Shown here piece after piece: positions 3,707 through 48,100 of a stretch of 64,000 bases of DNA (positions are counted from its first letter, which is position 1; every line of letters begins with the position of its first letter). Source of the DNA: Erpobdella octoculata (Eukaryota > Annelida > Clitellata > Hirudinida > Erpobdellidae); NCBI GenBank assembly GCA_963978895.1, contig OZ022247.1, positions 9,969,456 through 10,033,455 of the forward strand. Reading direction: 5' to 3'. Both the position numbers and the translations under genes were made by a program. The notes below the pieces were generated by a model that was not told the origin of the DNA, ran no database searches, and saw only the letters and a list, made by a program, of their open reading frames with translations.

Positions 3707-3802
3707 CGCCCGATATGGGACTCGAACCCATGACCCTCAGATTACTACTTGAGGAAATCAGCTCTTAAAAGTCTGATGCTCTACCGACTGAGCTAACCGG
3801 GC
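3707..3802 (-). tRNA. tRNA-Lys-TTT: tRNA-Lys(UUU) with 23-nt intron
   Basis: Read on the minus strand this folds as a full cloverleaf. Acceptor GCCCGGT pairs with ATCGGGC, the D arm is GCTC/GAGC, the anticodon stem is TCAGA/TCTGA with loop CTTTTAA, and the B box is GGTTCGAGTCC. Discriminator is G. A 23-nt intron (starts AGAGCTGATTTCC) lies between loop positions 37 and 38. Without it the tRNA is 73 nt. A second copy at 30208-30303 keeps the intron, with two changes, in the same place. Likely functional. Confidence 0.92.
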
Positions 3803-10329: not shown

Positions 10330-13300
10330 AGTTTTACAGAGATTCGGTATACCAGTCAATCCAAGAAATCTAAAATATGGAAGAGTTATTTACGATCGTT
10401 TCTGTAAAAGTCTCGATGGAAAAAACATTGAAGAAAATAATGCCGGCCCAGCTTCAACTATTATCAAGAATTCCCCTATCACTGATGAATCATTTCCAAC
10501 TTCAAGTGACGGTTATTTTAAGGCTCTCCTTGATTTTCCAAGTTCTACAGATGAACCATTATCAACCTCTTTAGATGTTTTAGCAACCCAAGAAGAAGCT
10601 CTGTCTTCCATGTATACGGATGAAAGTTTGACCTCGAAGGTTTGGACAACGCCTATGCAAGGAACTTCTCCATTTACTATGGAAAAAGACGAATGGAAGT
10701 CTCTAAGGGCTTTCCAACAAGGAAAAAACTTTGAAATGAATTGGATGGAAGTATTCCAACAATATATCAAAATCAACAATCCTTACTGTTGTTTCGCCTT
10801 CCGTTGGCACAGGGTAAAACCATTAGAATCCAGAAAACACGGTTTACTTTTCAACACAAAAGGAAATTGTCGTTTTGATGGATGAGAAATCCAAATAAAA
10901 ATGCAGATATCAAATGAAATAGGGCTCAAAGGACACATGACTTTTTTCGGAGGAGGCGGCGAATGTCGGCACCCAGTCGATAAACAACTTTGCCGATATA
11001 TTCGTAGTACTGAAAGAGACGAAATAGCCAAGACACTGGAAGATAACAATCTTCAATCCAGAGTAAGATATCTAAAAACATTGGATGGGATGGAAGCAGA
11101 TGTTTTTGATTCTGGCAATAAAGATGATGCCCCAAATCCTCAAGTTTTGAGAACGATTTCCAGCCAGTATCGGAAGAAAAGAAGGAGCCACAAACTGGAA
11201 ATAGAAAGTTTGTTGTTGCTAAAAAAAAGCACAGGCAAATGACAATTTTGCCTGCCTACAGGTAGTTATTGCTGTTCCTCTGGGTATTATGCTGTGGTCT
11301 CAAGAAAGTATTAGAATATTTCATGAGTTACGACAGAGGGATATTGTTTACTTGGACGCCACAGGAAGCATAGTGAAAAGACGGGGATCTCCCTTTTACA
11401 TCTACGAACTTGTTGTCCGCAATCCCGTAGAAGGAGGTCCACCTTTTCCCGTGGCAACCTATGTCACATGCAGTCACACGACGGCATCAGTGAAAAATTT
11501 TTTAAATGAGTTCAAGAGCACTTACAGTCAACGATATGAAGGGCGAAATAACAAACGTCCTAAACTCATGATATGTGATGGGTCAATTGTTATCCTGAGA
11601 GCCCTATGTGACTCCTTTTGCGACGCATGCCCAGAGATTGTTTTGGAGGCATATTATAGAATTGTGACTGGGGCAGCAACGGAAGAGGATCTCACAACAC
11701 CCGTTGTCCATCGATGTTTCAGCCTTATAATGAAAAACGCAAAAATATTGTGCAAGAAAACGCTATCAACAAATTGGAAAATCGGAATGAGTTACATTGG
11801 ATGCCTCGCCACCACGTCAACGCTAGAGGAGTTGTGTAGTTTATTGATAACGGGACAAGTAGTCTTTGGGAGTAAATGGGTTGGACCGTCGTTAAAAGAA
11901 CACGTTGAGTAACTGGAAAAATTCATTAATTTCACTAATGATGAACAATGCAAACAGATGACTGAAACTGAAGACCATGAAGAACCTTACGAAGTTTTTC
12001 CCAGTTTCCTCTTTTGCCAAAGACATCGAAAAAGCAATTTCTTCAGCACCGGTGGTTGAATAAAGAGAGGTTGAAAATTGTTTCTACAGTGAAACTTTCA
12101 TGAAACTCCTGGAAAAAGATTTCTTACCCAATTCACCTTTTTGGACGGGTATACTACTAGACGATTTGGGAAGACATGCCACTAATAACAGCACTCCGGC
12201 CTATATCAATTATTCGAAGTGGTACAAAAGGATATCCAGTCTTCCATATAAAAACATTTCAAAAAATAATAGGACCCAAGGAATAGTTGAAAAGAATCAG
12301 TGAGATCTTAAACATCGTAGGATAAAAAAGCAGCTAGGACGGCTGGATGATTTTTTTATTCTATACAAAGAAAAATACCGGGGTTTATTACGCCATTTCA
12401 ATTCCGTAAGGCATGACTCAAAATTTCTAAATAAGAGAGAAAGATCAAAGGCCAGTGGACATTTGAAAGCCGCACCGCTGAAAAAGCGCAAAATTGAACT
12501 TGAAGTATGGGCCAACAAGAAACCATCTAAAAAACGGGGAGTTTACGTTCAGCCACCAGTCACAAAAATTGATTTAATCAATAAAATTGACGAAAAAGCT
12601 GCAACTTGAATGAAAAGTTGGCCATTTCAAATAGTATTTCCAACGTTCTCCGAGGAAGCGGTTGGTTCAGTTCTGAACCGATAAACAGGGCCCTTAATAT
12701 TCTAAGTCAGCAAAATCCAAACCAGGGTGGATTCATGGACGTTGACTTTCTAACCAATATAAAAGTCACGGCATCTGGAGAAACCCCCTCCAAAACATTT
12801 ATTCAAATAATAAACCAAGGTGGTGATCACTGGATCACAATCAGCAACAGATTTTGCAAATCCGGTCAAGTGGACGTTTATGACAGTCTAGGAAGAACGC
12901 TCAATTCTTCAGATATCAGAACGATTGCTTTCTTAACGAAAGGACGCTGGTAATAAAACATCAGAACGTTCAGCGTCAAGAATGTGGAAATGATTGCGGT
13001 CCCTTCTCAATAGCATTCGCTGTCACTCTGGCACTGGGAAAAGACTCGGCAACGTGCAAGTACCACCAAAAGGATTTGAGGCAGAAAATTGAATTTGCCT
13101 TTAATGAAAGCAAGTTCTCTACGATGGATTGCCTTGATAAATTGTCAAAACCGGAGCCGATGGAGGAAACTATTGAATTGTACTGCCACTGCAAGTTAAA
13201 TTTTATTAAGGACAACGGCACGGAGGAGGACATGATCACATGCGATAAATGCGACCAATGGTTCCACAGAAGTTGCGAAAATGTGTCCCAGAAGTCTTTT

Positions 13301-13787: not shown

Positions 13788-14750
13788 TTAATTTTTTTGA
13801 AAAGCAAAAACTAAATATATGCTGGTTGCTTCCCATTCAGAAAATGAGAGTGATGCCACATTCATTTTTTGCAATAAAATTTGGCCTTTTTCTTTCCTGG
13901 CATGTTTATCAAAAAACTCTTCAAAAGTCATGCAAAACAAAAGTTTCATGTTGTGCTTTGATGCCATTTTCTCTAAGAGTGGAAAGTAAACTAGATACTC
14001 AGGGCAGTTAACTACTCCATCAAGAAAGAAGTTGTACTTCGCTCCAAACAACGGTATATCAGTCTTGCTTTTCAAGTCAAAATCGACCTTGTAGATATCG
14101 TTCTGAAAAGACATGTGTTCAGCTTTTCTCAATCTTTCAACCATTTCATGCCAACTTGTTGTTGTTCCAATAAATATCCCTCCAGGTTTGAGACATTCAC
14201 AGGCATTCTCGATAATTCTCTCGGCTTGAGCAATGCTTCCAAAAGAATAATGAATTGCAAACTGACAACTCGTTATGTCAAATTGCTGATATTTGTTTTT
14301 ATACATTGCTTTCAACCTCTCTTTTGAGCAATCAGCTACAACAAACTCAGCTTTAAAAAGAGGTTTTGGATTTCTGTCTTCTGATTTCCGCACATACAAT
14401 GAGTTGGTTGAACGGATTTTTGTCCGTTCAACCAACTCATTGTATCGGCCTTTACTTTGTTCAACTGAAGTCTCTGCTATATCAGCACAAACCAAATAAT
14501 CAATGTTTCCATATTTCCATTTAGAAAGATCCCCTCCTTTGCCAGAACAAAGGTCTAAAACATCAAGTGATTCTCCCCTTTTCTTTTTTAACTTACCCAA
14601 TGCCTCATTAATTAGCATAGTTTTCACCCAGTTGTTAAAATTTCTCATGGAAATGATTTTGCTTGTGTTTCTTTTGGTAAGTCCATAATTTCCAAGCTGG
14701 TTGTAATACGAAGCAACAGAATTTGCAGCTTTTATATTAAATCTTTCCAT
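13788..14750 (-). CDS. RNMT: mRNA cap guanine-N7 methyltransferase
   Basis: Transfers a methyl group from S-adenosylmethionine to N7 of the cap guanosine of nuclear mRNA. The 320 residues cover the catalytic domain: SVASYYNQLG (11-20), MRNFNNWVK (35-43), SAM motif DVLDLCSGKGGDLSKW (63-78), VCADIAE (87-93), CQFAIHYSF (162-170), LKPGGIFIGTT (187-197), a LVYFPLLEKMA segment, and the typical C-terminus SEWEATSIYLVFAF. Most homologues read LGCGKGGD where this has LCSGKGGD. A 23-bp perfect hairpin is translated as residues 102-119. The reading is intronless over this domain. The frame stays open upstream of the chosen ATG to a possible acceptor (TTTTTTTAG, ~14784), so a variable N-terminal extension on an upstream exon is possible. 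A retrocopy cannot be excluded, but the frame is intact. Confidence 0.9.
   Translation of the reverse strand: MERFNIKAANSVASYYNQLGNYGLTKRNTSKIISMRNFNNWVKTMLINEALGKLKKKRGESLDVLDLCSGKGGDLSKWKYGNIDYLVCADIAETSVEQSKGRYNELVERTKIRSTNSLYVRKSEDRNPKPLFKAEFVVADCSKERLKAMYKNKYQQFDITSCQFAIHYSFGSIAQAERIIENACECLKPGGIFIGTTTSWHEMVERLRKAEHMSFQNDIYKVDFDLKSKTDIPLFGAKYNFFLDGVVNCPEYLVYFPLLEKMASKHNMKLLFCMTFEEFFDKHARKEKGQILLQKMNVASLSFSEWEATSIYLVFAFQKN
14394..14445. repeat. 23-bp perfect inverted repeat inside RNMT
   Basis: ATACAATGAGTTGGTTGAAC at 14394-14413, continuing to 14416, is matched exactly in reverse complement by 14423-14445, with a 6-nt spacer TTTTTG. On the coding strand the first arm reads RYNELVER, as expected for the family. 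The second arm supplies IRSTNSLY. Confidence 0.97.
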
Positions 14751-16383: not shown

Positions 16384-19690
<3,307 letters not shown>

Positions 19691-21003: not shown

Positions 21004-23927
21004 CTAAGCAAAATCAAATTGCATATCACCAAAAAAATCATCCAAAAGTGATTTGAACAAAGACAACGATTCAGCAGACACCACCGGCCCAGGGAGCCGA
21101 TTCCAGTCGTCCACCACTCTGTTACTGAAGTAATACTTCCTGCAATCTTTATGAGCCAACCTAGTAGCTAACTTAAACTCGTGTCCCCTAGTTCTTTCGT
21201 CAGGGCAAAGGGTCAACCCCGGACAGTGGCAATCCATCAACTGACCAGACTTCATTTTATACAGAAGAATTAGGTCTGCTCGCTTTCTTCTATATGTCAG
21301 GGAAGGCAATCTGAGTTTCTTCAACCTCTCCGTATAAATGAGACCTTTGCATGACCTGACCATTCTGGTAAACCTTCGCTGAACCCTTTCGAGTTCTTCA
21401 ATCAGACCACGCCCGTGAGGACTCCAAATCTGAACTCCGTACTCCAATTGAGATCTAATCAGAGATTTGTACAATGTTACAAAAGCATCATCAGGCAGAT
21501 ATTTTAAAGTTCTTCCAACTATACCCAACAAGGAATTGGCCTTTTTGATTCTAGAGAACACATGGTCTCTGAATTTCAATTTTGAATCCAGTATGATTCC
21601 TAGATCAGTAACCGAGCTAACTTCAGGAACCACAACAGACAAACCTGATGTATCTTGCATATAGTAATCCGCTGCAAAACGATTACCTCCAACCTTTAAA
21701 ACACAACATTTAGATGGATTCACTGTCATTTGCCATCTTGTGAACCACTGCTGCAATTTATAAATGTCGGACTGCAGTTCCCGAGTGTCTTTGAAGTCCG
21801 CGATCGGTCTAAACAACTTGGCGTCGTCCGCGAAAAGGTAGATGTTTTCGCTAACACCACAAATATCATTGATATAGATCACAAATAACAATGGACCTAA
21901 CACGCTTCCCTGAGGAACACCACTCAACACGGGAAAGGAATCAGAGAGTCCTCCCCTCAACTGAACTCTGAATGATCTCTCCGTCAAGTAACTTCTGATC
22001 CATTCTATCAATATTGGATGAACTCCATACTCCTTCATCTTAAACAAGAGTCTCTTGTGTGGAATTCTGTCAAAAGCTTTTTCTAAGTCGGTGTAGATTG
22101 TATGCACCTCCAACCCAGAGTCAACCGAGAGAGTAACTTCGTCCAGGAACTTCAGCAACTGCAGGACCGTAGAGCGTGAAGGAAGAAATCCAAACTGTCT
22201 ATGAGTGAAGATATCATATTGCAAAAAGTAGCTCATAATGTGGTCTTTAATTATTGACTCGAGAATTTTGCAACATACTGATGTCAAAGCTATTGGCCTG
22301 TAGTTCTCGACCTTAGCTTTGCTACCTTTTTTATACAACGGAACCACAACACTTGACTTCCAATCACATGGAACCACCCCCGAAGCCAATGATGTTCCAA
22401 AAATCCTCAACAAATGTTCATTTAAAACCAGTCTTGTTTCGCTTAAGATTCTTGAATGTATGCCATCCGGCCCCGCAGACTTTCCCCTGTTCAAGGCCAT
22501 CAATTTTTTCTCAACAATGCCACTATCAATTTTCAATTCTGTCATTCCACAAGCCGGCACAATTGGGTGAAATGTATCATCGCCTTCAAAGAGATCTTCC
22601 CGTACATAAACCGACGAGAAGAATTTAGCGAGTGCTTCTGCTTTATCTCTGTCACACATTAAGTCAGTTCCATCAACATTTAGAACACCAATACTCTCTT
22701 TAACCTTGGTAATTTTTTTAACACGGCTCCAAAACAACTTTGGACAGGTTCTATACTCTGAGGCAATACGGCTCTGACTCTCGATGTTGAGCTGTTTTGA
22801 CAATCTCTTGACTTTATCTCTGGTTACTCGGAACTCAGTCATTATGTCATCTCCATATTTGTAAATCCTTCTCCAAAGCTGATGTTTTAATTCAATGAGA
22901 CATTTCAGCTCAGGTGTCATCCGAAAGGTAAACTTCTTGTAAATCTGCTTTTTAGGCACAAATCGACTTGTAAGTTCATTTAGAGTATTGCGAAAAAACC
23001 TCCATTCGGAATCCACAGAGGACTCCAGAGGTCTGTCAGTGTTAGACAAACACTCATCCAGAGCCATGCTAAGACCACCATAATCACCCAGTTCATAACA
23101 AAACCTCTTTTCGTCCGGCCTCAAATTCTTTGTGAAACCAACCAATTTAAACCCCAAGATTGAATGATCACCATTCCCCAGCGGAGAGTAATATTGAATG
23201 TCAGTGATGTTGTCGCCAGACGTAATCACCAGATCCAGGACGCTTGAAGTTTGATTGGCAGCCCTCCTAGTAGGCTCATCAACATGTTGAAGCAAAAACT
23301 GTCATTTAAGAAATTAAGAAATTTATTTTCAATCTTCTCAGCTGAACCGTTGCAACTAAAGGTATTCCAGTTAATGTCCGGGAAGTTGAAATCACCAATA
23401 ATAACATGTTCACCTCTCAATAAAATGAACTCCTCAAGTAACTGGATGAGAAGGTCATTATTCGCACCACTGGAATTGGGACTTCTGTATACTGACAATA
23501 AATTCATCGTCTTGTTGGTTAGGGCCAGCTTTATGCACAAAGCTTCCTTAAATGGTGTACACAATGTCACTTCTGAGATATGGAGTTCTTCCTTGTAATA
23601 TGCCACAATACCTCTGCAGGACTGACTAGCAAACCCACTCGTTAAGACCTGGTACCCATCAATCTGAAACTCTGAAATACTCAATGGCTTGGTAAAGTGC
23701 TTAGGATTGGTCTCCAACAAAACAATTACATCTGGAACTTCAATCAATGACTTTAAAACAAACAAAAACTCCGTAAACTTATTTGTTAAGCAGTCAACAT
23801 TATTAAAAAGAATTGAAACAATGTCTTTTGGAGCACTTAAACTTGAACAGGACAATTTTATAAATTTTGTCTTCTGTGGGTTACCACATAGAAACCTCCT
23901 GGCTGCCCTCTCAATCTGAAAACCCAT
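21004..23927 (-). pseudogene. LINE endonuclease-reverse transcriptase with one frameshift
   Basis: Endonuclease in 23927-23226: NNVDCLTNKFTEF, CRGIVAYYKE, VYRSPNSSG, IIGDFNFPDINW. The frame shifts near 23280-23300 (FCFNMLMS against MLQHVDEPTR) and continues through SVLDLVITS, GDHSILGF, the YRPIALTSVCCKILE block, FLPSRST, TDLEKAFDRIPH, GVPQGSVLGPLLF, LFADDAKLF and LEYGVQIWSPHGRGL. The catalytic residues are present; the single frameshift disables it. Confidence 0.88.
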
Positions 23928-25406: not shown

Positions 25407-25409
25407 CTA

Positions 25410-28400
25410 TAGTCCAGGAGAATTAAAAAATTTCCTTGTTGTACCTAGACAAAATTTGCAGCAAGCTGATTTTTGGATATTTTGTTTGTAATACGTTTAT
25501 GATTCTTCCTGCAAAAATCGGTTGAAATCGTCAAATAGGAAATTGGTTTTTTGACGCTTTTTTGAAAGAGATTTACCGTAGTGAGCGATAAGTTAGTATT
25601 TTCGTAAATTGTCGTAAAACATTGAATTTCTAAGTTAGTATTTTGTAAAACATCTATTTTTTGGAGTTTTTATTGTTCTTTTTCGAAATGGGTGAACTAA
25701 ATGAAATTGTATGTTTAATTTGTCGAGCTGAATTCCGTTCCGACAACGTCTCTGATACAGTCAAGTTGGTTACACTAGGTGTTAAAGGTATTAAAACGTT
25801 ATGCCAATTCAGCGTTTTACGTGGTGATGAACAGTTAACAGAGTATCTGTTAAATAAACCAAATGTAGCTAATGGTCGTGATCATTGCCGGAGAGACTAC
25901 ACTAACAAAAGAAGTTTCGATCAATTGAAACGAAAGAATGAGCAGCATGCAGAAGGTGTTGGTGTTGATCAAGAGAATTTTAAGTGTAAATTATTACGAT
26001 CGTCTGTCAACACTTTCAATTGGAAGCAACATTGTTTTTTGTGTGGAAAAATAGATTTTGGAGAAAGTAAAAAACATTTAAAAGGAGAATCAAGTACTGT
26101 GATGACATTGAAATTCAGAGAAACTATAATTGAAACTTGCCACAAAAGAAATGATGCATGGAGTGTAGAAGTTCTTGGTAGGTTAAATTCATGCAATGAC
26201 TTACCAGCTGAAGAAGCTCGTTACCACAGAGTGTGTCTTTCGGTGTTCTTAAAATGTAGATCATCACATGTCGGAGATAATACCGCTGGCCGAAACCATC
26301 CAGATAACGACATGTTAATTACTTTTGAAAAACTGTGTGACTGGTTAGAAGAAGAAGATCAAGGAATTTATACAATAGCTGAATTACAAATTAAAATGCA
26401 AGAATTATCGGAAGATGGTGAAGTGTATTCATTAAAACATATAAAACGAAAGCTGGAAGAAAGCTACGCTGAGCACATATTTTTTGCCGAAGTTTGTGGT
26501 CGGAAAAATGTTATTTGCTTCCGTAACATGGCAACTCACATTATAACTAACCAATGGTATGCTGAAAAAAAGAGTAGCATAGAAGATGAGAGTGAACGTA
26601 TCATAGTGGCAGCAGCAAAATTGATAAGAGCTCAAATAAGAGAAATATCCTCAAATAATGAAACATATCCAGGAACTGATGATTTCTCAAATATTGAAAA
26701 TGCCAAAAGGTGGATTCCTAGTTTGTTGAAAATCCTAATAGAAAATATTGTTTGTAATGAAATAAAACAAGTTTCCATATGTCATTCTATTGTGCAGGGG
26801 GCAAGACAAAGATCTCTTATCTCTCCAATTTTGTTTGGAGTCGAAGTTAGTTTAGATCACGCCTTTGGATCTAGATGGCTTCTTGATTTGCTGTCACAGT
26901 TGGGATTTTCAATTTCATATGATGAAGTTAAACTTTTTAAACAATCAGTGGTTCAGAATGACTTCCCTGATACTCCTCAGTCTTTTCCTCAATGTTTTAC
27001 GCAATGATCTGGTGATAATCTTGGCCACAACATTATCACTTTAGATGGAAGTGGTACGTTTCACGGTATGGGCATCATATCAATGTCTATTCCGTGTAAT
27101 CGATTAGGGTCAGGACACTTTGCTGAATCAGCTGTACCTCGATTGTCACGCCTAAAATCCAGTTGTGTTGTGAAAAACCGAGGTATTCCTATATTGGGAT
27201 ACACATTCCCCGACAAGTCATCATTATCATTGATGTCTTTCAAGCCCATCTCTCACTTAAATTTTCCTTCTGTGTTGCCTCCTTCTTTAAACTTGGAACT
27301 TGGCTGAAAAATTGGTATCTTGTGCTTAGATGAAGATCAGCAAAGGCCAAATTGGTCCGGCTTTATGGAACATGCTTGTAAACCTAACGGAGATTTCAGA
27401 TCATCATCAGACATAAGGATGCTTCCAATTATTGATTTGAACTCTAATAACATGTCTTGTATTTTATCCACTTTAACTTTCATTAGAACGCCAGGCTTAA
27501 AAGCTCAACATTCCAACGGCTTGTGTGACTTTCGACCAGCCGCTGTGGTTAAAGGCTGTTGATATTATGCATTCATCCAAACTGAACATAGTATGTCGTC
27601 TAGGTTGGTTTCATGTCTTGATGAATTATTTGGGCAGCATTGGTCATGTCATGGCCGGCTCAGGTTTGACAAAAGCGCTGCAGTGCTGTTATGGACTCAT
27701 AGCCATAACTCACATGATGACAGGGAAGGCAATGGCTAGAGCACTACGCGGCCACTTTTTAGTAGAGTCAGCTTTGTTTGCTTTGCTTTTAGAATCAATA
27801 TTGAAAATGGAGTTTTTGACTACTTCTGATATTGATGATCTGAGGAATCTCTACAAAGGACACAGGGCGGGAAATAAAGAAATTGTTATTTTTAGGTGTT
27901 TTTGTTGTTTTTCTGTTTGTTTTTTTTTTATTGTATGTTGAAATTGGAAATTATTTATGGATTTATATGTAGGCTTTTTAATATGTGTATATTAAATAGT
28001 ATGCAACAAGCAATTTTCATAATAATCTTAATTTATTTTGCACATTTAGTCAAAAACGGCACAATAAAGTAGTTTATTTGTATCCGTATATAATGTTGCG
28101 AGACAAATTTTAACTTATGTATATTTTGCATTAGGTAGTTTTCATCTATAGATTGAGTTATTTTTATTTAAATGGATTTTAAGAGCTGATATATTGTATA
28201 TTTTAAGGAAAAACGGCTCCATAAATCAGTTTATTTGTATTTATTATTTTTTTATTGATAATTTTTAATGTTTGTATATCATGCAATAAGTAACAATAAA
28301 GCATTCAGCTTAAACTTTAGTTATTTTCATCTAATTGGATTAAAAGAGCTGGCATATTAAATTATTTTACCGATTTTAAGGCCGATTTTGAAAATCGTCT

Positions 28401-28532
28401 GTAATTTTTTTATACGATGAGTTGGAAGGGTGGATTTTTAACTAATTGTTGCTAACACATATACCTACAAAACAAAATATCTAACTGCTTTGCTTCCAAT
28501 TATGCCAGCTTTTTTTTAATTCTCCTGGACTA
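25410..28532 (+). mobile_element. 3.1-kb TIR transposon, superfamily unassigned
   Basis: The 21-bp perfect terminal inverted repeat starts TAGTCCAGGAGAATTAA at 25410-25430, and its reverse complement lies at 28512-28532. CTA flanks both ends (25407-25409, 28533-28535) and may be a 3-bp target duplication. The only coding content is one long protein, now broken. About 570 bp of AT-rich DNA separates the end of the frame from the right TIR. Confidence 0.85.
25688..27925 (+). pseudogene. putative transposase of unassigned family, two TGA stops and a frameshift
   Basis: The frame likely starts at MGELNEIVCLIC (25688). It runs to TGA at 27005, continues in the same frame to TGA near 27304, then to about 27560, and shifts to the third frame (27525-27925). 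Visible features: two cysteine pairs suggesting zinc binding (CLIC, then WKQHCFLCG with ARYHRVC), a Glu/Lys-rich middle, a serine/Asp-rich turn ITLDGSGTFHGMG, MLPIIDLNSNNMSC, LTFDQPLW, RLGWFHVLMNYLGSIGHVMA and THMMTGKAMARALRGH. Three acidic residues at LDG, IDL and FDQ lie in strand-like settings and could form a catalytic triad; this is inference. I have seen similar repeated proteins in invertebrate genomes but cannot give the superfamily. Confidence 0.7.
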
Positions 28533-28535
28533 CTA

Positions 28536-30207: not shown

Positions 30208-30303
30208 CGCCCGATATGGGACTCGAACCCATGACCCTCAGATTACTACTTGAGGAACTCAGCTTTTAAAAGTCTGATGCTCTACCGACTGAGCTAACCG
30301 GGC
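30208..30303 (-). tRNA. tRNA-Lys-TTT: tRNA-Lys(UUU) with 23-nt intron, second copy
   Basis: Same mature sequence as 3707-3802, with the 23-nt intron at 37/38 differing in two bases (starts AAAGCTGAGTTCC). A Box TAGCTCAGTCGG and B box GGTTCGAGTCC are intact. The flanks are unrelated beyond a few bases, so these are two separate genes and not one recent duplication of a long segment. Confidence 0.92.
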
Positions 30304-33748: not shown

Positions 33749-34326
33749 TGTAAACGTAGAGGAATATGCTTTCTAGCGATTCGTAACGTTAAAGTCGAAG
33801 TTATTTATAACACAATATTTCTCGAATTTATTTTAACTTTATTATTCTTCCTTGAATATAATCCTTTTCTTGACTCTAAACTGAATTATATCACTTTGCA
33901 GAAGTTAGCCCGGTTCTGACAAATCTTTTTATAATTCCAATTTCTCTACTCAACAACCTTACTTTTTCTACTGAGGACCACAAAAAGGAAAAAGACCAAT
34001 ACCAATTATATATATATATACACATATATATATACATATATATATACATATATATATATACATATACATACATCCATCCATGTATATATACACTCAAACA
34101 CACATATACACATATATACACTAATGATACAAAAATTATACGCACACACAATGTCACAGGAGCACAAATATACACATATACATACATATACATATATATA
34201 TACATATATATACACACATATACACACATATACATTCATACATAAATGACTATTGTTTCAACACAACCAAAATATGCACACATAATAAAATAAAATAAAC
34301 AAATACTATGAAAATACGTAAGATGA
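33749..34326 (-). repeat. 3' LTR, truncated at its inner edge
   Basis: Starts TGTAAACGTAGAGGAATATG on the plus strand and matches 35833-36426. It ends at TAAGATGA, where the full LTR continues ATCATCTTCATCTTACA. The missing bases, and the polypurine tract expected next to it, were lost in the internal deletion. Confidence 0.93.
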
Positions 34327-35734
34327 GATCGCAAAGTAGGTTTTTCATGCACACCACCTCTCTAGTTCCTCTGAACCAGCCTGTTTTGATTTTTACCACT
34401 GCTGTTGGAGCTACCCGAACTGTGCCGTCGATCAAAACACAAGGTCTTGTTCTTCCGGTCATCTGACGCGGGTGCACTAATGATTCCTTTACTATTATGG
34501 AAGTACAGCCAGTGTCCCTCAAAACTTTTACCGGTTTTCTGTTCACAAACCCTCTGGTTAAATTAAACTTTTCCCCGGAGTGCAAACAACCATCCGCAAT
34601 GACAGGCAAAACGCATCCACACTTCAATTCCACCTCATCCATTTTTCCTTCCATCACCATGGCAGCGCATGCATTCACAACGCCGGAATCCTTGCATGGT
34701 GCTGACGTAGTCGTCTCTTTCCGTGTTTGGCAAAATACAGGATTACTAGGGCTACTCTGCCGACACTCTCTTGCTATGTGCCCCGTTTGATGACAGTTGT
34801 AGCAGCGAGGTTCAACCATTTTGGCGTCACTGACCGACTGACCCCAGTTCCAACCCATCCTGCTATTGCTGTCCAATTTTGCCAACCTCTTCTCTGGGTG
34901 GGCTTGGCTGTACTTGTTGACCCAAAGGCACAGCTCATTGACATCTCTGCTCTCTTTCTCCAACAAGTACTCGACCATTCCCGCCGGGCACTTTCCGAAA
35001 AACTGCTCTTTCAGAAACAAAAACAACAGATTTTGTTTGCCCGCGAGATCTACCCAGCGCCTGAGGTGGCTATCTAGCCGCACTAGATAATGTTCCCAGG
35101 TCTCCTCCGGTTCAGGCTTTGACTCTCGAAACATTATGCGATAGTCTTCCGCTGACTTCCCAAAACGACGAAGGAGTGCCTCCTTTGCCGTTCTGTAGTC
35201 CTGCATCTGACTATCGCTAAGTTGGCCAAACACTTCCAAAGTCTTCGCACTAAGCAACGACCCTAGAAGCATTCCCCAATCCTTCTGAGGGTGACATTTG
35301 GCTTTTGCCAATGACTCAAATCTCAGCAAAAATGCGTCGATGTCATCACCTTCAGAAAACTTTGGATAAGGGATCTTAGTAGCCTCCGCCGACGGTTTTG
35401 GCTCTATTTTTTTTTGGCCCTCCAATTCCAGCTTCTTCAATTCCAATTCATGCTGGCGTTGTTCGCGCTCACGTAGAAGTTGAATTTCCCGTTCTTCTTT
35501 AGCTTGTTGAAGTTGGAGTTCTCATTCTTCACGTTCCCGTTCTTGTTGTGCTATTTTATCTTCACGCTCCTGCTGAGCCTTTTTTTCTTCACGCTCCTGC
35601 TGAGCCTTTTTTTCTTCCCGTTCCTCCATTCTCTTAACCCTTTCTTCATCCTTCAACTCTTTGACATAACTCCTTAAATCCACTCCGGAATAGCCGAGAG
35701 CCTGTCCCATCGCAATGAATTTCTCGTCAGACAT
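34250..35734 (-). pseudogene. Gag-protease polyprotein with one TGA
   Basis: Start MSDEKFIAMGQALGYSG at 35734. A Glu/Arg-rich coiled stretch is interrupted by TGA at 35522-35524 and continues in frame. The Gag core reads FSEGDDIDAFLLRFE through WVNKYSQAHPEKR. Then a CCHC knuckle CYNCHQTGHIAREC and an aspartic-protease site LRDTGCTSIIVKE. The protease ends CDLIL and reads straight into LTR sequence (RIFIVFVYF), stopping at 34250. The TGA stands in an Arg-rich run (EREREE*ELQ), so CGA to TGA is likely. The structural part is otherwise intact. Confidence 0.88.
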
Positions 35735-45177: not shown

Positions 45178-48100
45178 TTATTGAAATGTAAAAAATGTCC
45201 ACTGTACCTTCAGTCCATCATCTTCGGCTGTTTCATCCATTTTATTGCTATGGTAACAGCCTCTTTTATAGCGAATCAGATCTCCCCACAGTATCTCTGA
45301 TTTACAAACAGGACATATTCCTTCAACTGGTAGAAGTTGTTTGTCACTTGATTTAGACGTTGTTTTCAGAAAATGTTCGGCCAGACATATTGTGTGAAAC
45401 TTTGTGCAGCAGCTTAGACAGGAAATTGACTCTTCTGAATCATTCTAGAAGTAAATTTAAAATATTGATTATTAGCTGTGAATGAACAACTTTATAAAAT
45501 AGCTTTATATCACTTATATGCAAAATGTTTTGGTTTTCAATCATTTCGGTTAGAAGTATTTTTGTCCTCACCCAATTCTGCCTTAATTCATCAAAACATC
45601 CAGTAGCAAGTGAGTAAAAATATGAAGTCTAAAGCTGTGTTGTGCTTATAAAATATGACTTATGCTGAATTCCAGATAAGATGTCACTGGTCAAACAGGT
45701 ATTATGACTAGTGTAACATAGTTGTATTAGCTGTGTCATTATGTCCCGCTTTGTTCAAGACTTTGGGTCACCTGAAGACAGCTTTTTAACATTCTTTCAA
45801 TCAAGTGTCTTTATCAACATTTCAGATACAGCTTATGTAATATAAAAGAACTTAAAATAACTCACACCAACTGTAAATGAGCACAATATGCAAGAGACTT
45901 CAGTACCAGGCACATCTGGGATTTCGTTTTCAATGGACTTTACTTTTACACACTTCACAGGACCATATCGTATGGACATGTGATATGGTGGATCCAAAAT
46001 GGAACTTAGGTCTCTCTGGATAAAAATGATGAAAAAGCATTAAAAAAATTTCACATTATGATTTAATTTTATATTAAAGTAGCTAATATTAACAGTGTGT
46101 TTATATCGAAGTATATTAATCAGTTCTGCCACACACAATGTTAATACAATCAAAATTTAAAAAAAAATTAAAATATTATATGAATGTACTAAAAACTGAA
46201 AAATAATATAAAAGTTTAGCGAATAAAATTTTTCAAACCAAACTTGTTTGCTTCGTTCGGAAGATAAAAGCATTGGGCGTTAGTTGAATACAGTAAAAGT
46301 CCTTAAGAACGGCTGCTTAGTGCAACGGGCACATTTGCACGGAACGGAATTTCTTATATCTGTATCTTGCCTACAGTAGCTTATCCCCAAAGAATGGACA
46401 GATGCGAGAAGCAGACACTTTTGCTCTTCCCGAAGGCATCCACTCTACAGGATGTCTATTGTATATATTTATATATAGATCACAGATTGTAGTTGTTGTG
46501 CCCCACATTTTAATCATCCAAAAGAAGCAAAAAAGTTTGGTTCAAAAATTTGTTTAAATGTTTAGTACATTTATATTTAAACGTTTATAAAAATTGTTTT
46601 AATTTTTTTTATTGTTGAACAAATCTTGTCATAGACCAGATTACATATAAAGTTTATTTATTTAAGTGTATTGGATTTATTATAACTTAATTCATTCGTA
46701 GCTTCACATTCTGCAGGTGCGAACGTTCCACTTCCAGAAACTGGTAGAAGCTGCTCCTACTTATATGTTTTTCTATGTTTAAATCTTTACTTTTAATTTT
46801 TTTAAATCTGGAAACGGATTAATGTATTGTCACCGGATATACACCTGCATGAAAAAATCAACTTCTTACAACCATTAGAAGTGCTTTTAAAAAGCTTTAG
46901 AAACAAATAACAAACAGTGCAAGCTAATACTAATATAAGTGCTGTAAAAAGAAGAAATTTTGATTTCCCCTAAGCTTCGATATTTATTGGACTATATTGT
47001 AATTTCAAATAGTATAAATTAATTTGTATATTAGTTTAATTTTAAAGTAATTTCTTATCAATAAATTAAATATTATCATCAAAAACTAATATGCAGGCAA
47101 ATTTTCAAGTCAATCTGAAAACGGGAAGTAAGTTAAAAATCGATCATAAAATTAACCGGTAGCACACACCGTGACAAAGTTAAGTAAAAGTGTATAAAAA
47201 AGGAAAGCTATAAAAATGATTTGAAATATAAACAATAGCATAATGCTATGTTTATTGCTAGCTTTAGAATGCAACAATACAAAAATGTTCATCAACATGA
47301 GACTAAACAATTCAGAAAAAAACTAACCCATAAAAACAAAGTTTTTATTATAAATCCTTTATATACGATCCTAGATTTTTATTTTATTTGAATTTTTGCA
47401 ATCGTTTTAGTGCCAATTGTGCGATGGCTTTTCGCAGCTACTTGTACCAGTTTTTAGATATATTCGCTAGGTGTCACTTCAATTAAATGTAGCGACATCT
47501 ATCGAATGAATTATATATTTTCAGATTTCGATTTTCTAGAATTAAAACTTTAAATCGCTCTAGCGCCTAAACGGTGCGTCCTAGAGCAAAACGGACGTCA
47601 TTTTTGGGGCTTTCAAAGGGCGGTATGGAATCGGCCCAAGATTAAGTTAGTCCAAAAAAAAAAAAATTTCGTTTTTTTTTTTTTTTTTTTTTATCCGATC
47701 AAACTGAAATTTTGATAGATTCAATTGTCTCGCAGCCCAAGTCGATGTGCCAAATTTCAGCTCGATCGGATAACGGGAAGTGAGTTAATTTTGAGACTCA
47801 AAGTTTGTGACAGGAAGACAGACAATCGAAAATAATATAAAGGATTTAAAAAACAAAAAGAAATAAGCTGATGGTTGACAGTATTAATTAAGAAAAACCT
47901 TCAACGTAATATTTGATTCGTAACTTTAGAACAAGTGCAAATCTTCCTAGCATTGCATTAGCACTTAGCAGTAGTAATATAAAATATTTTCTTTGGGGGT
48001 TAAGCAAACTAATGTGATATAGAGATAAAAAATCTAAATGTATATCTCTTTAATGGTAAATAAATTCATAAACGAATCTATAAATAAATTTTTCTAAGGT

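Follow-up and report, generated by a model that had tools for sequence, protein, structure and literature searches.

We analysed a 64,000-nucleotide stretch of the genome of the leech Erpobdella octoculata (GCA_963978895.1, contig OZ022247.1, positions 9,969,456 to 10,033,455; hereafter the window), in which an initial annotation had noted a 3.1-kb DNA transposon with an unassigned transposase. The results showed that this element is a non-autonomous, internally deleted, decayed copy, and that it very probably belongs to the AcademX lineage of the Academ superfamily, to which it was matched by published description. We made this assignment because the joint transposase and nuclease of its relatives, the 3-bp match between its flanks, the length of the protein and the host range all fit. 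A candidate for a new superfamily was struck off the list and named, the element being a decayed member of a known group.

Relatives of the transposase and assignment of the element

We searched for relatives with the first-frame part of the gene, read through its TGA codons, and found 175 at E ≤ 1e-3 among 4969 candidates, of which 120 were listed. Among the matches listed, the nearest was P0001 (95% identity over 84%), which stands for 26 sequences clustered at 90%, and the named relatives were mostly hypothetical or uncharacterised proteins from limpet, mussels, clams, leech and sea spider. One sea-spider relative is named a solute carrier and has the corresponding Pfam domain (PF00892); this entry presumably derives from a fused gene model. 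With a profile search, relatives as long as 1567 amino acids (aa) were obtained, and the long named ones include those of the sponge Dysidea avara (1522 aa), Littorina saxatilis (1558 aa) and Patella caerulea (1461 aa), while the relative from Daphnia pulex has 685 aa. From the N- to the C-terminus, the long relatives (1400-1567 aa) contain two C2HC-type zinc sites, a winged-helix-like region and an RNase H-like DD..E core that is interrupted by a helical insertion, followed by a FEN1/EXO1/XPG-type nuclease and, in most of them, a cysteine-rich tail. They look intact, as the initial annotation had guessed that some relatives would be, and the N-terminus, where it had noticed cysteine pairs, is zinc-binding.

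According to passages of PMC10045372, AcademX makes target duplications of 3 or 4 bp and AcademH of 9 or 10 bp, the difference being tied to the encoded nuclease or helicase. According to passages of PMC10294476, Academ elements average 5565 bp and occur in bivalves, with a few open reading frames (ORFs) in Capitella and Helobdella; the original work, as cited in a passage of PMC4455052, is that of Kapitonov and Jurka (2010). The element resembles AcademX in the nuclease joined to the transposase (in the relatives), the terminal inverted repeats (TIRs), the likely 3-bp duplication, the presence in bivalves and leech, and a full length of about 5.5 kb implied by a protein of about 1500 aa. It differs in that the window copy is 3.1 kb long, broken, and without the putative catalytic Glu and the nuclease, and in that its relatives also occur in sponge, sea spider, Daphnia, limpet and periwinkle, a wider range than passages of PMC10294476, a mollusc survey, report. 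The label "unassigned" is therefore replaced, because the architecture of the relatives and the likely 3-bp duplication fit AcademX as described in passages of PMC10045372. A literature search did not meet Academ, XPG and transposon together as whole words. AcademH was rejected, since the flanks do not match over 9 or 10 bp and none of the 56 members of set A1 or the 42 members of set A2 matched a helicase motor family at E ≤ 0.1; the sole match with helicase in its name was PIN-like_DDX60, a PIN-like domain, in one member per scan.

We then considered whether the element belongs to a superfamily that is still unnamed and is AcademX-like only in its nuclease and 3-bp duplication. The Pfam families matched at E ≤ 0.1 by the 56 A1 members (17 families) and the 42 A2 members (24 families) include no transposase, which favours this reading, as does the fact that AcademX was compared by published description. 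However, the fused FEN/XPG-type nuclease, the likely 3-bp duplication, the size and the mollusc and annelid range match AcademX/Academ as published, in the passages cited above, and a family so abundant in animal genomes would hardly have been overlooked by Repbase. We therefore regard an unnamed superfamily as unlikely.

The relatives are thus abundant in animal data, yet none of the scanned members matched a Pfam transposase model, and single relatives scanned against Pfam met no family cutoff. One of the 56 A1 members matched a zinc knuckle at 2e-4. The commonest weak match was DUF6589 (PF20231), found in 10 of the 56 A1 members (best E 9e-4) and 5 of the 42 A2 members (best E 0.0018), and at E 0.035 in the window ORF at 27525-27941. 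This match covers the block after the second Asp and, where bits were shown, reached 12-15 bits against a cutoff of 27. DUF6589, which was not met in the literature search, may be a distant part of this transposase family. Scans with two short peptide patterns, which may omit the genome of the window itself, gave 2 pattern matches in viral contigs and 135 in bacterial and archaeal genomes, with 0 confirmed relatives in either. The interest for specialists is limited to the placement of the core, the missing Pfam transposase model and the possible DUF6589 link.

Ends of the element and flanking duplication

The coordinates of the element are collected in Table 1. The perfect 21-bp TIR of the initial annotation was upheld, with all 21 bases of the two arms pairing. 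When up to 3 mismatches were allowed, the 21-mer occurred in the 64 kb only at these two sites, and it gave 0 matches across 100 shuffles. The termini are TAGTCC, and with the TIR read from there the flanks are CTA/CTA, 3 bp being the single matching length among the 2-10 bp tested. This agrees with the CTA duplication proposed earlier, which we regard as likely and not proven, because a 2-bp TA/TA duplication can also be read when the TIR is trimmed to begin with GTCC, and a single insertion was examined.

Table 1. Features of the element and their positions in the window
Feature	Position	Strand	Basis
Left target-site duplication candidate, CTA	25407..25409	.	Flank comparison; equals right flank at length 3 only
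Left TIR, 21 bp	25410..25430	+	21/21 complementary to right arm
Open N-terminal part, 439 codons: two zinc-binding modules, winged-helix-like region, helical region	25688..27004	+	ORF; relatives; fold of relative P0030
First in-frame stop, TGA	27005..27007	+	Translation, alignments to relatives
DN-x-x-H-N motif, first candidate catalytic Asp; second Asp replaced by Gly	27014..27031	+	Alignment to relatives
TFHG motif	27056..27067	+	
Second in-frame stop, TGA	27305..27307	+	Translation, alignments to relatives
PIIDLN motif	27425..27442	+	
Frame change, approximate place	27482..27486	+	Alignments of relatives
Last recognisable transposase stretch, second frame, up to start of helical insertion	27483..27890	+	Homology ends at about 27790-27890
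Third stop, TAA, second frame, within the stretch aligned to relatives	27498..27500	+	Translation, alignments
TFDQPL motif, second candidate catalytic Asp	27528..27545	+	Alignment to relatives
GSIGH motif	27633..27647	+	
THMMTGKA motif	27708..27731	+	
AT-rich non-coding stretch in place of the relatives' Glu block, FEN-like nuclease and Cys-rich tail	27941..28511	+	No trace of these found
Right TIR, 21 bp	28512..28532	-	21/21 complementary to left arm
Right target-site duplication candidate, CTA	28533..28535	.	Flank comparison

The shorter repeat would make this a TA-duplicating element with a TIR starting GTCCAGG, since taking two bases off the TIR leaves TA/TA as flanks. We consider this very unlikely: the longer reading accounts for the whole 21-base TIR and for three bases of each flank, and the transposase is unlike that of Tc1/mariner in size and Pfam content.

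We also looked for a paralogous empty site in the window. The joined flanks aligned to 47752-47852 with 70% identity over 102 bp, but the alignment was poor right at the junction, so that no empty site is claimed there. A search of viral contigs with the first 18 TIR bases gave 2 single-ended matches, neither with an inverted partner (≤3 mismatches) in the stretches examined; both were taken as chance.

Broken gene and lost C-terminal half

Between the TIRs lies one gene on the + strand, with three stops and one frame change. Its first-frame piece is 30-54% identical to the 17 relatives tested, and 99 further codons separate the TGA at 27005 from that at 27305. The alignments to P0130 and P0134 run in the first frame up to 27484 and continue in the second from 27483. 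The GSIGH/THMMTGKA block singled out by the initial annotation was located in the second frame stretch (Table 1), and the first zinc site of the window copy lacks its His (RDHC against the consensus H-x-x-C). The frame had been described as broken by only two TGA codons and one shift; all three are real, but with the TAA as a third stop and the loss of the C-terminal half, the copy is far more degraded than had been held.

This loss was evident from the long relatives. Six relatives of 1516-1567 aa align to the window copy only up to their own residues 697-759 and extend 800-864 residues past the end of the match. When the C-terminal parts of 26 relatives were compared with 27880-28535, 3 rows at E ≤ 1 were obtained (best 0.10, 19-24 aa), and the C-terminal half was thus not detectable there. 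From the point at which homology ends, the extra residues of the relatives and the absence of any counterpart in 27880-28535, we conclude that the gene is truncated as well as interrupted. The stretch in its place contains a 69% identical tandem duplication (28052-28205/28209-28369). Because the Glu block, the nuclease and the tail are lost and an Asp has become Gly, the copy would be non-autonomous even without the three stops and the frameshift.

A further relative, P0004, 55% identical to the window protein, has the transposase front joined straight to nuclease motifs (DGG at 631), skipping the region from the second Asp to the Glu; it is another internally deleted or spliced form.

The open N-terminal part could conceivably be retained because its product binds DNA and represses full-length AcademX copies, by analogy with KP, the P-element repressor. 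Its 439 codons are open, while the roughly 300 codons beyond the terminating TGA have two further stops and the frameshift, and the ORF has the zinc and winged-helix regions and ends just before the catalytic core. However, a young dead copy could show such an ORF by chance, and the His of the first zinc site is missing, so we consider a retained repressor very unlikely.

Predicted fold and candidate catalytic residues

We next examined the predicted fold of relative P0030. The model has an RNase H-like core, and its best structural matches, of modest Z, were the P element, Hermes and RAG1; these matches came from a VIA second look, whereas Foldseek alone found nothing below E 0.001. The A1 profile against PDB sequences gave 2 rows (best E 0.88) and no meaningful match. 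Conservation was counted in P0030 numbering over 56 aligned relatives, in the rows with a letter: D443 was present in 54/55, D446 in 56/56, D614 in 53/53 and E900 in 21/22, with 34 of the 56 rows lacking a letter at E900. The second Asp of DN-x-D-H-N, invariant in these relatives, is the residue replaced by Gly in the window copy; in a looser search covering 245 proteins, it was found in 199 of the 202 that have a looser form of the motif.

The P0030 model offers three candidate catalytic residues, namely D443 or D446 in DN-x-D-H-N, the Asp in TFDQPLW and the Glu in D-L-V-I-E-Q. We infer that E900 is the catalytic Glu, because the aligned ends of the three matches, counted back to known catalytic residues, reach model residues 902-904. 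The anchors were Hermes E572 and P element E531, which we take to be the catalytic Glu residues, and RAG1 E962, given in the structural-match output. Three acidic motifs had been put forward in the initial annotation, with the question of whether their Asp residues sit in an RNase H-like core. The core is predicted and the Asp of TFDQPLW remains a candidate, but DGSGTFHG and PIIDLN probably do not supply catalytic acids: the PIIDLN Asp, conserved in 52/55 rows, lies just past a later strand of the model, and the D of DGSG, the majority residue among relatives, is Thr in P0030.

The predicted fold sets the transposase beside the P element, Hermes and RAG1 and thereby predicts where the catalytic Glu lies, a position open to test. 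With the P element, hAT/Hermes and RAG1/Transib it shares a predicted RNase H-like core split by a helical insertion before that Glu; it differs from them in that no such Pfam family was matched at E ≤ 0.1 (A1, A2) and no PDB sequence by A1, and to our knowledge none of them carries a fused FEN-like nuclease. The P element and hAT duplicate 8 bp; membership in either was rejected, as the flanks differ at length 8. The C-terminal domain of the relatives is like the FEN1/EXO1/XPG nucleases in fold and in the order of its acidic motifs, and unlike them in being fused to the transposase in a single protein; it is absent from the window copy.

Membership in EnSpm/CACTA or Zator is extremely unlikely, for although the flanks match over 3 bp and EnSpm makes 3-bp duplications, the termini are TAGTCC and not the CACT(A/G) of EnSpm/CACTA, the A1 and A2 members matched no Pfam transposase at E ≤ 0.1, and we know of no described fused FEN-like nuclease in either group. 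Passages of PMC10045372 describe Zator as having 3-bp duplications and an ISAzo13-like transposase; the A1 and A2 scans gave no ISAzo13-like Pfam match, though the models may not reach so far.

Proposed working of intact relatives

In the intact relatives, one protein of about 1,500 residues would perform the whole cut-and-paste reaction. The zinc sites and winged-helix-like domain would bind the 21-bp TIRs, and the predicted DD..E core, into which a helical insertion is set after the second Asp and ahead of the Glu, would catalyse cutting and joining. The fused FEN1/EXO1-like nuclease may trim the flaps or ends that cutting or integration leaves, and a 3-bp stagger at the insertion site would produce the CTA duplication. 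The window copy, which has kept both ends and lost the second half of its gene, would be mobile only with the protein of an intact copy in trans.

Neighbouring features of the window

An intact single-exon ORF of 320 aa at 13788-14750 (-) has a messenger RNA cap guanine-N7 methyltransferase domain (PF03291, E 5e-102) and is a eukaryotic housekeeping gene or a retrocopy of one. Two ORF sets resembling non-long terminal repeat (non-LTR) retrotransposons lie at 16492-19260 (+) and 21004-23927 (-), with long ORFs of 734 and 763 aa; both are endonuclease- and reverse-transcriptase-like by eye. The Gag-like ORF at 34250-35446 (-) has a CCHC zinc knuckle, matches an aspartyl protease weakly and is probably part of an LTR-type element. 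At 11289-11912 (+), a 207-aa ORF looks by eye like a transposase fragment and had no Pfam match at E ≤ 0.1. Two transfer RNA (tRNA) matches at 3707-3802 (-) and 30208-30303 (-), each of 96 bases and 62.1 bits and 26.5 kb apart, are either a duplicated intron-bearing tRNA gene or a tRNA-derived repeat.
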